Position numbers and translations under genes: made by a program. A DNA stretch of 64,000 nt from Lentilactobacillus senioris (lineage in GTDB: Bacteria > Bacillota > Bacilli > Lactobacillales > Lactobacillaceae): the NCBI RefSeq assembly GCF_026798195.1, contig NZ_JAPQEZ010000003.1:62001-126000 (forward strand). The letters are read 5' to 3'. Shown here piece after piece: positions 56,727 to 58,232 of the stretch (position 1 is its first letter; every line of letters starts with the position of its first letter). Under the pieces are notes generated by a model. That model saw nothing but the letters and a program-made list of their open reading frames with translations, had not been told where the DNA came from and did no database searches.

Positions 56727-58232
56727 ATGAGCGATCAACAATATATTATGTCTATTGATGAAGGTACTACCAGTACCCGAGCAATTTTATTTAATAATAA
56801 GGGAGAAATTGTCGGTAAATCCCAAAAAGAATTTACCCAATTCTTTCCCCATTCTGGCTGGGTAGAACATGATGCTACCGAAATTTGGAATGCTGTTCAG
56901 TCAGTAATTTCAGAAGCCTTAATTGAATCTGATATCCCCCCTTATAAAGTTCGCGGAATTGGTATGACTAACCAACGTGAAACTACGGTTATTTGGGATA
57001 AAAATACTGGTGAACCAATTTACAATGCTATCGTATGGCAGTCCAAACAAACTAGTGATATCGCTGATAAGTTAAAGGTAGATGGTTATCAAGACTTAGT
57101 TCATGATAAAACTGGACTGATCATTGATTCTTATTTTTCAGCTACCAAGATTAAATGGATTTTAGATCACGTAGAAGGGGCCCGTGAAAAGGCTGAAAAG
57201 GGTGATTTATTATTTGGGACCATTGATACTTGGATTTTATGGAAGTTAACCGATGGTAAAGTGCATGCTACTGACTATACAAATGCCAGCCGCACAATGC
57301 TATTTAATATTCATGACTTAAAATGGGACCAAGACATTTTAGATATTTTAGACATTCCTAGTTCCATGCTACCTGAAGTTCATTCATCTTCAGAAATTTT
57401 TGGTTATACTGCAGGCTACACTTTCTCTGGTGTCCAAGTACCCATTGCCGGAATTGCTGGAGACCAACAAGCTGCTTTATTCGGCCAAATGGCCCTTAAA
57501 AAAGGTATGATCAAAAATACCTATGGAACCGGAGCTTTCATTGTAATGAATACTGGTGAAACTCCTACTTTGTCTAACCGCGGTCTTTTAACCACTATTG
57601 CTTATGGGATCGATGGCAAAATTACCTATGCTTTAGAAGGTAGTATCTTTGTGGCTGGGTCAGCAATTCAATGGCTCCGTGATGGTATGGAAATGGTGGA
57701 ACATTCATCAGAATCTGAACAAATGGCCATCAATGCTAAAGATAGTGGTGGAGTTTACGTAGTACCAGCCTTCACTGGGTTGGGCGCTCCATATTGGGAC
57801 CAACAAACTAGAGGAGCCGTTTTTGGACTGACTAGGGGAACTACCAAAGATCAATTTGTTCGCGCTACTTTAGAATCCTTAGCTTATCAAACTCGTGATG
57901 TAATTGACACAATGGTAGCTGAAACTAACATTGATTTAGAAACTTTAGCAGTTGATGGTGGGGCAGCTAATAACAATTATCTCATGCAGTTCCAAGCTGA
58001 CATCTTAAATACACCAATTGAACGAGCATCTATTTCTGAAACAACTGCGTTAGGGGCAGCATTTTTAGCTGGATTAGCAGTTGGTTTTTGGCGAGATATT
58101 GATGAAATTAAGCAAACCATTCATTCTAGGGACGAATTTATTCCTAATATGAACGCTGCTACTAGAGATCACCTATATAATGGTTGGCAAAAAGCAATTA
58201 ACGCCACCATTCAATTCCATTATGATGATTAA
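56727..58232 (+). CDS. glpK: Glycerol kinase
   Basis: A 501-residue FGGY kinase that makes glycerol-3-phosphate from glycerol and ATP. The N-terminal [15 protein letters not shown] and the later [18 protein letters not shown] and [18 protein letters not shown] are diagnostic. The Gram-positive activation loop reads [10 protein letters not shown], so residue 232 is Thr where the PTS-phosphorylated His232 of enterococcal enzymes sits. Activation by HPr is therefore unlikely. It is a lone gene with no glpO or glpF adjacent. ATG follows ACGGAGAATTTTTA. Confidence 0.96.

Follow-up and report, generated by a model that had tools for sequence, protein, structure and literature searches.

In the literature, glycerol kinase (GlpK) is tied to the PTS through a single histidine: HPr~P phosphorylates His232 and so activates the enzyme when PTS sugar uptake is absent. 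His232 is given as the phosphorylation site of the Enterococcus casseliflavus enzyme in two reports (PMC10154347, PMC2680290). Latilactobacillus sakei, which has the same enzyme and belongs to the same bacterial family as the organism studied here, keeps both His232 and a glpK-glpD-glpF operon, and it needs ptsI for growth on glycerol, as ptsI mutants fail to grow on it (PMC3146418). Among the open-licence sources, themselves available in part, we found no lactobacillus other than L. sakei with a stated residue 232. The GlpK of Escherichia coli is controlled by binding of EIIA-Glc, and its loop is described as glycine-rich (PMC2680290).

The window GlpK and its residue 232

The stretch of DNA analysed here, which we call the window, is 64,000 nucleotides long and comes from Lentilactobacillus senioris. 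It carries glpK on the forward strand at 56727..58232 (stop codon included), an ORF of 501 amino acids that starts with ATG and has no internal stops. The protein scores above the cut-offs of TIGR01311 and NF000756 and gives a full-length match to GlpK structures. With TIGR01311 it reaches 726.9 bits over residues 5-496, where the curated equivalog cut-off is 590.35, and this score over the full length, together with the conserved residues, makes it a member of the GlpK family. Catalytic and glycerol-binding roles belong to R84, E85, Y136, D246, Q247 and R18; the first five, as well as G267, are identical in 190/190 GlpKs compared, and R18 in 188/190. Judged by its sequence the enzyme is catalytically intact, and decay of the gene, which the preliminary description had already denied, can be set aside because the ORF is intact.

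The nucleotides 57417-57425 translate as Y-T-F, and the codon ACT at 57420..57422 (forward strand) places threonine at residue 232, the position that by sequence and alignment corresponds to His232, where PTS phosphorylation occurs. Residues 1-499 pair one-to-one and without gaps with GlpK chains in the PDB (phmmer); in the three printed alignments Thr232 stands opposite Arg in 3h3n and 3flc and opposite Glu in 3h45, all of which we take to be E. casseliflavus GlpK with engineered mutations of His232. The window protein has histidines at positions 42, 48, 126, 148, 180, 196, 219, 326, 466, 482 and 498, the nearest being 13 positions from residue 232, so that no other histidine occupies the enterococcal His232 place. 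The preliminary description had stated both the threonine and its coordinates, and had named another histidine at that place as the observation to look for against its reading; the threonine is where it was said to be, and no such histidine was found. A sequencing error is unlikely because the same Thr is present in a separate L. senioris genome. A Q12E change coupled to residue 232 was also considered and rejected, as E12 is common with His232 too (84/97).

Compared with the GlpKs of E. casseliflavus and E. faecalis, which are activated by HPr~P via His232, the window enzyme belongs to the same family and has the same loop position in a full-length, gap-free alignment, but it has Thr232 in place of the histidine that marks an HPr-phosphorylated Gram-positive GlpK, and neither glpO nor glpF as a neighbour. 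Because the phosphoacceptor is missing, activation by HPr~P at residue 232 is very unlikely, as far as the protein sequence can tell. With Thr instead of His the HPr~P route would be closed at this residue, and the enzyme would most likely be constitutive, working at the level of an unphosphorylated GlpK or slightly higher. Its likeness to E. coli GlpK would consist in a loop that HPr does not phosphorylate; the E. coli enzyme presumably has no histidine at the HPr site, and uses EIIA-Glc instead.

Residue 232 in the family and the genes beside glpK

Eighty GlpKs from named records, picked by likeness to the window GlpK, were compared, and the closest of these is from L. senioris (99%). The Lentilactobacillus enzymes have Thr (6) or Ser (10) in 16/16 cases, and T, S or A is also found in Secundilactobacillus (4), Apilactobacillus (2), Fructilactobacillus (2) and Philodulcilactobacillus (1). 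His232 is present in Limosilactobacillus (6/6) and Enterococcus (7/7), and in 1/11 records named Lactobacillus. A family sample of 190 GlpKs has H in 97, T in 34, Q in 23, S in 9 and A in 8, with G (5), I (3), N (3), Y (2) and L (2) as rarer states and V (2), R (1) and E (1) as the rarest; here the T/S/A232 GlpKs of heterofermenters form one clade. The Thr232 GlpK is an ordinary, clade-wide variant. The loss of PTS control proposed in the preliminary description thus stands in so far as the phosphoacceptor is gone, but with T or S throughout Lentilactobacillus the loss of His232 is neither recent nor species-specific: it is old, genus-wide and common to many lactobacilli.

In the window, two tautomerase-like ORFs stand between a C69 peptidase gene and glpK, one of 52 amino acids at 56171..56329 (forward strand; Pfam Tautomerase 51 bits, cut-off 22) and one of 62 amino acids at 56405..56593 (forward strand; 71.6 bits). 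Downstream, on the reverse strand at 58281..59114, lies an ORF for a HAD-type hydrolase (Pfam Hydrolase_3, 193 bits). Tautomerase, HAD hydrolase, RsmF methyltransferase and C69 peptidase genes are neighbours shared by many non-His glpK loci of heterofermenters, and none of the four was found in 32 glpO-bearing glpK loci. Like the window enzyme, the non-His GlpKs of Lentilactobacillus, Secundilactobacillus, Apilactobacillus and Fructilactobacillus have no glpO neighbour and often share this neighbourhood. No glpO/glpD or glpF was found in the 1.5 kb flanks of the window gene, so this locus lacks the adjoining glpO/glpD by which a catabolic glp operon is recognised. Two His232 GlpKs of the sampled genus g3 (sampled genera are given here by code) occupy the same neighbourhood, and the context therefore allows loss of the histidine and does not force it. 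By eye, a terminator-like hairpin follows the tautomerase-like ORFs at about 56600-56623. A catabolite-control (cre) site before glpK was looked for and rejected, as the window has 6 pattern matches where 6.84 are expected by chance, none of them near glpK. A cre-like near-palindrome, tgaaacggtttc, was seen by eye at 56111-56122, upstream of the tautomerase ORFs; it is absent from the pattern-search list.

A glpO/glpD-like gene adjoins glpK in Pediococcus acidilactici, Latilactobacillus fuchuensis and Enterococcus avium. Pfam supports the assignment, with a DAO match for the Pediococcus gene (the end of which is missing), DAO plus the alpha-glycerophosphate oxidase C-terminal domain for the Enterococcus gene, and confirmation of two glpO neighbours from the family sample. 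In a first set of 130 loci, in which records from the named set and the family sample overlap, such a neighbour is found at 32/51 His232 loci vs 0/79 others. Twenty further flanks, picked to include within-genus contrasts, have glpO within the fetched flank in 3/8 His copies vs 0/12 others. After removal of identical proteins (11 loci) and of loci with flanks below 900 bases or with stops (11 loci, including the second GlpK of the host genome), 127 of 149 loci remain, the named ones including genera outside Lactobacillaceae. Among these 127 distinct GlpKs a G3P oxidase/dehydrogenase gene adjoins 32/52 His232 enzymes vs 0/75 others. The 20/52 His232 enzymes that have no glpO neighbour include four from g3 and g6, and therefore being solitary does not force loss of the histidine; locus L302, a tandem GlpK with His and no glpO, stands outside this table and would add to the same class.

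The same contrast is seen within genera and within one genome. In g38 one His copy has glpO and four copies with I, N, L and L do not; in g10 the His copy has it and the Asn copy does not; in g9 the His copy again has it, and the copies without it have Tyr and Asn; in g18 the His copy has it, and the copies with Val and Gln do not. In genome G098 the His copy has glpO and the Arg copy does not. Genome G144, of the genus g26 and without EI, has glpO beside its His232 copy. None of the tree-aware pairs runs in the opposite direction, but with so few pairs significance is not reached (median p 0.5 and 0.25). Genes for GlpD/GlpO away from glpK were searched for within Lentilactobacillus, other genera being scored by adjacency: the GlpD/GlpO C-terminal domain PF16901 was found in 0/21 genomes of the genus (mostly drafts, 2/21 of them under 90% complete). 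The search was positive in 6/14 control genomes, and the model also picks up GlpO in two further lactobacilli from the sample.

Taken as a whole, the likely account is that of an intact GlpK that has no HPr~P switch at residue 232 and is constitutive and anabolic. Its G3P would go into phospholipid and teichoic-acid synthesis, not into energy, because the genus appears to be without GlpD/GlpO. Gating by sugar supply would be useless for G3P of this kind, and it would be the end of the catabolic role tied to glpO/glpD, rather than the absence of pfkA or of the PTS, that removed selection for the PTS gate. The state of residue 232 follows a neighbouring glpO/glpD more closely than it follows pfkA or the PTS, and this context rule is the part of the result that deserves a proper test. 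More generally, and here we are tentative, with the chances somewhat short of even, residue 232 may be an evolutionary marker of the role of a GlpK: enzymes that supply a G3P oxidase/dehydrogenase, being catabolic and in need of the PTS gate, would retain His, and in those that serve lipid synthesis only the residue would drift to T, S, A, Q, I, N or L, even with a working PTS. If this is right, one residue and one neighbouring gene would predict sugar control of a lactobacillus glycerol kinase, glycerol use in food and silage lactobacilli would be easier to read, and loss of the sensor site could be told apart from loss of the PTS itself.

Neutral drift, pfkA and the history of the site

The strongest competitor, possible but in our view somewhat doubtful, is that site 232 is unconstrained and that Thr, Ser and Ala are neutral remnants that mean nothing for regulation in the present cell. 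Among 42 non-His GlpKs of heterofermenters (a set that includes L191, a divergent second copy) the site changed 6 times, vs a median of 3, and 328/501 sites changed less, which is what such freedom predicts. The residues in these same 42 enzymes are, however, all small, T in 27, S in 9 and A in 6, whereas in g38 the site holds I, N, L and H.

In the preliminary description the loss was linked to the missing pfkA, on the grounds that heterofermentative lactobacilli without this gene depend little on the PTS. We consider this unlikely as the cause, although several observations agree with it. A search of the whole genome of the window strain found no pfkA. Of the 201 genomes sampled, 158 had a GlpK that was examined, and each was scored by its copy closest to the window protein; His232 is more frequent in those with pfkA (68/82) than in those without (19/76). 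The histidine is absent in 14/15 examined genomes without EI and in 26/27 without PTS_EIIC, PF02378, a single genome of each set retaining it. The host genome itself is without a detected PTS_EIIC, and EIIA_2 was likewise not found in it. In the window, about 207 bases (24312-24518) separate dnaE, named by eye, from a pyruvate kinase gene, with no pfkA between them; the pyruvate kinase has 585 amino acids and an extra C-terminal PEP-utiliser mobile domain.

The PTS of the host argues against this explanation. The genome encodes EI and HPrK, and an HPr with a GIHARPAT site (His15) and a Ser46 motif, both of established role; EI and HPr, expected in a cell with an HPr-phosphorylated GlpK, are thus there. 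Adjacent genes for EIIA, B, C and D of the mannose class score above the Pfam cut-offs. An inference of PTS loss from the missing PTS_EIIC was overturned by EIIA-man and its operon, and DhaM as the identity of the EIIA-man match was ruled out since the gene sits in the EIIA/B/C/D operon. By its gene content, then, the PTS chain is complete-looking, HPr~P presumably can be made, and loss of the PTS is therefore not the reason here, contrary to the weak reliance on the PTS supposed earlier. Similar cases are on record: PTS components are reported for the obligate heterofermenters L. buchneri, L. kefiri and L. hilgardii (PMC6447522), and L. oligofermentans has no pfkA, yet has ptsH, ptsI, hprK and a mannose PTS (PMC4972977).

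Nor does the family follow pfkA or the PTS closely. The histidine is kept in 13/15 examined genomes of the pfkA-less genera g3 and g6, as it is in all named Limosilactobacillus records, and it is missing in 14/82 genomes with pfkA (in g38, g9, g10, g13, g5 and g37) and in 45/131 genomes with PTS_EIIC. Unlike the host genome, those of g23 (7/7) and g26 (6/7) are without EI. The mapping of residue 232 against pfkA and PTS genes that had been proposed as a check returns the raw association, but in tree-aware pairs for pfkA, EI and EIIC the median p is 1, with too few independent contrasts. The correlation between pfkA and His232 is genuine, yet it traces to a small number of old branches, and neither the missing pfkA nor weak PTS use accounts well for the loss. 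The preliminary description was right about the loss of the phosphorylation site and probably wrong about its cause.

A further question is the course of the loss. Instead of several losses there could have been a single one, in the ancestor of the heterofermenter GlpK clade, followed by a return of the histidine in g3 and g6. The g3/g6 GlpKs are one group (14 rows, FastTree support 100) inside a clade of 66 rows (support 96) that otherwise has T, S, A or G at 232, as a regain would leave them. By our count, however, either history takes about four amino-acid steps, and a change between His and Thr takes at least two base changes, so that an exact regain of His is less likely; we regard the single loss with regain as rather improbable. 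That a Ser/Thr kinase phosphorylates Thr or Ser232 and so regulates the same loop is very improbable: T or S is found in 36/42 non-His heterofermenter rows, and in all the named Lentilactobacillus enzymes, but Ala is found in 6/7 genomes of g23, and because single base changes interconvert codons for T, S and A, selection for a hydroxyl group is not required to explain the pattern.

Second and tandem glpK copies

The L. senioris genome has a second GlpK, with Gln at residue 232, which adjoins a glpF-like MIP gene (L002 / L198, 10588-12141), and Gln232 is found in 9/9 second GlpK copies examined in Lentilactobacillus. External glycerol may enter metabolism mainly through this GlpK beside glpF. 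Tandem pairs of glpK-like genes were seen at L240 (1483-4484), L302, G081:C1:262893-265902 and G050:C14:19431-22426; they occur in Companilactobacillus hulinensis and in the sampled genera g4 and g13, and in both g13 pairs one partner has Gln232.
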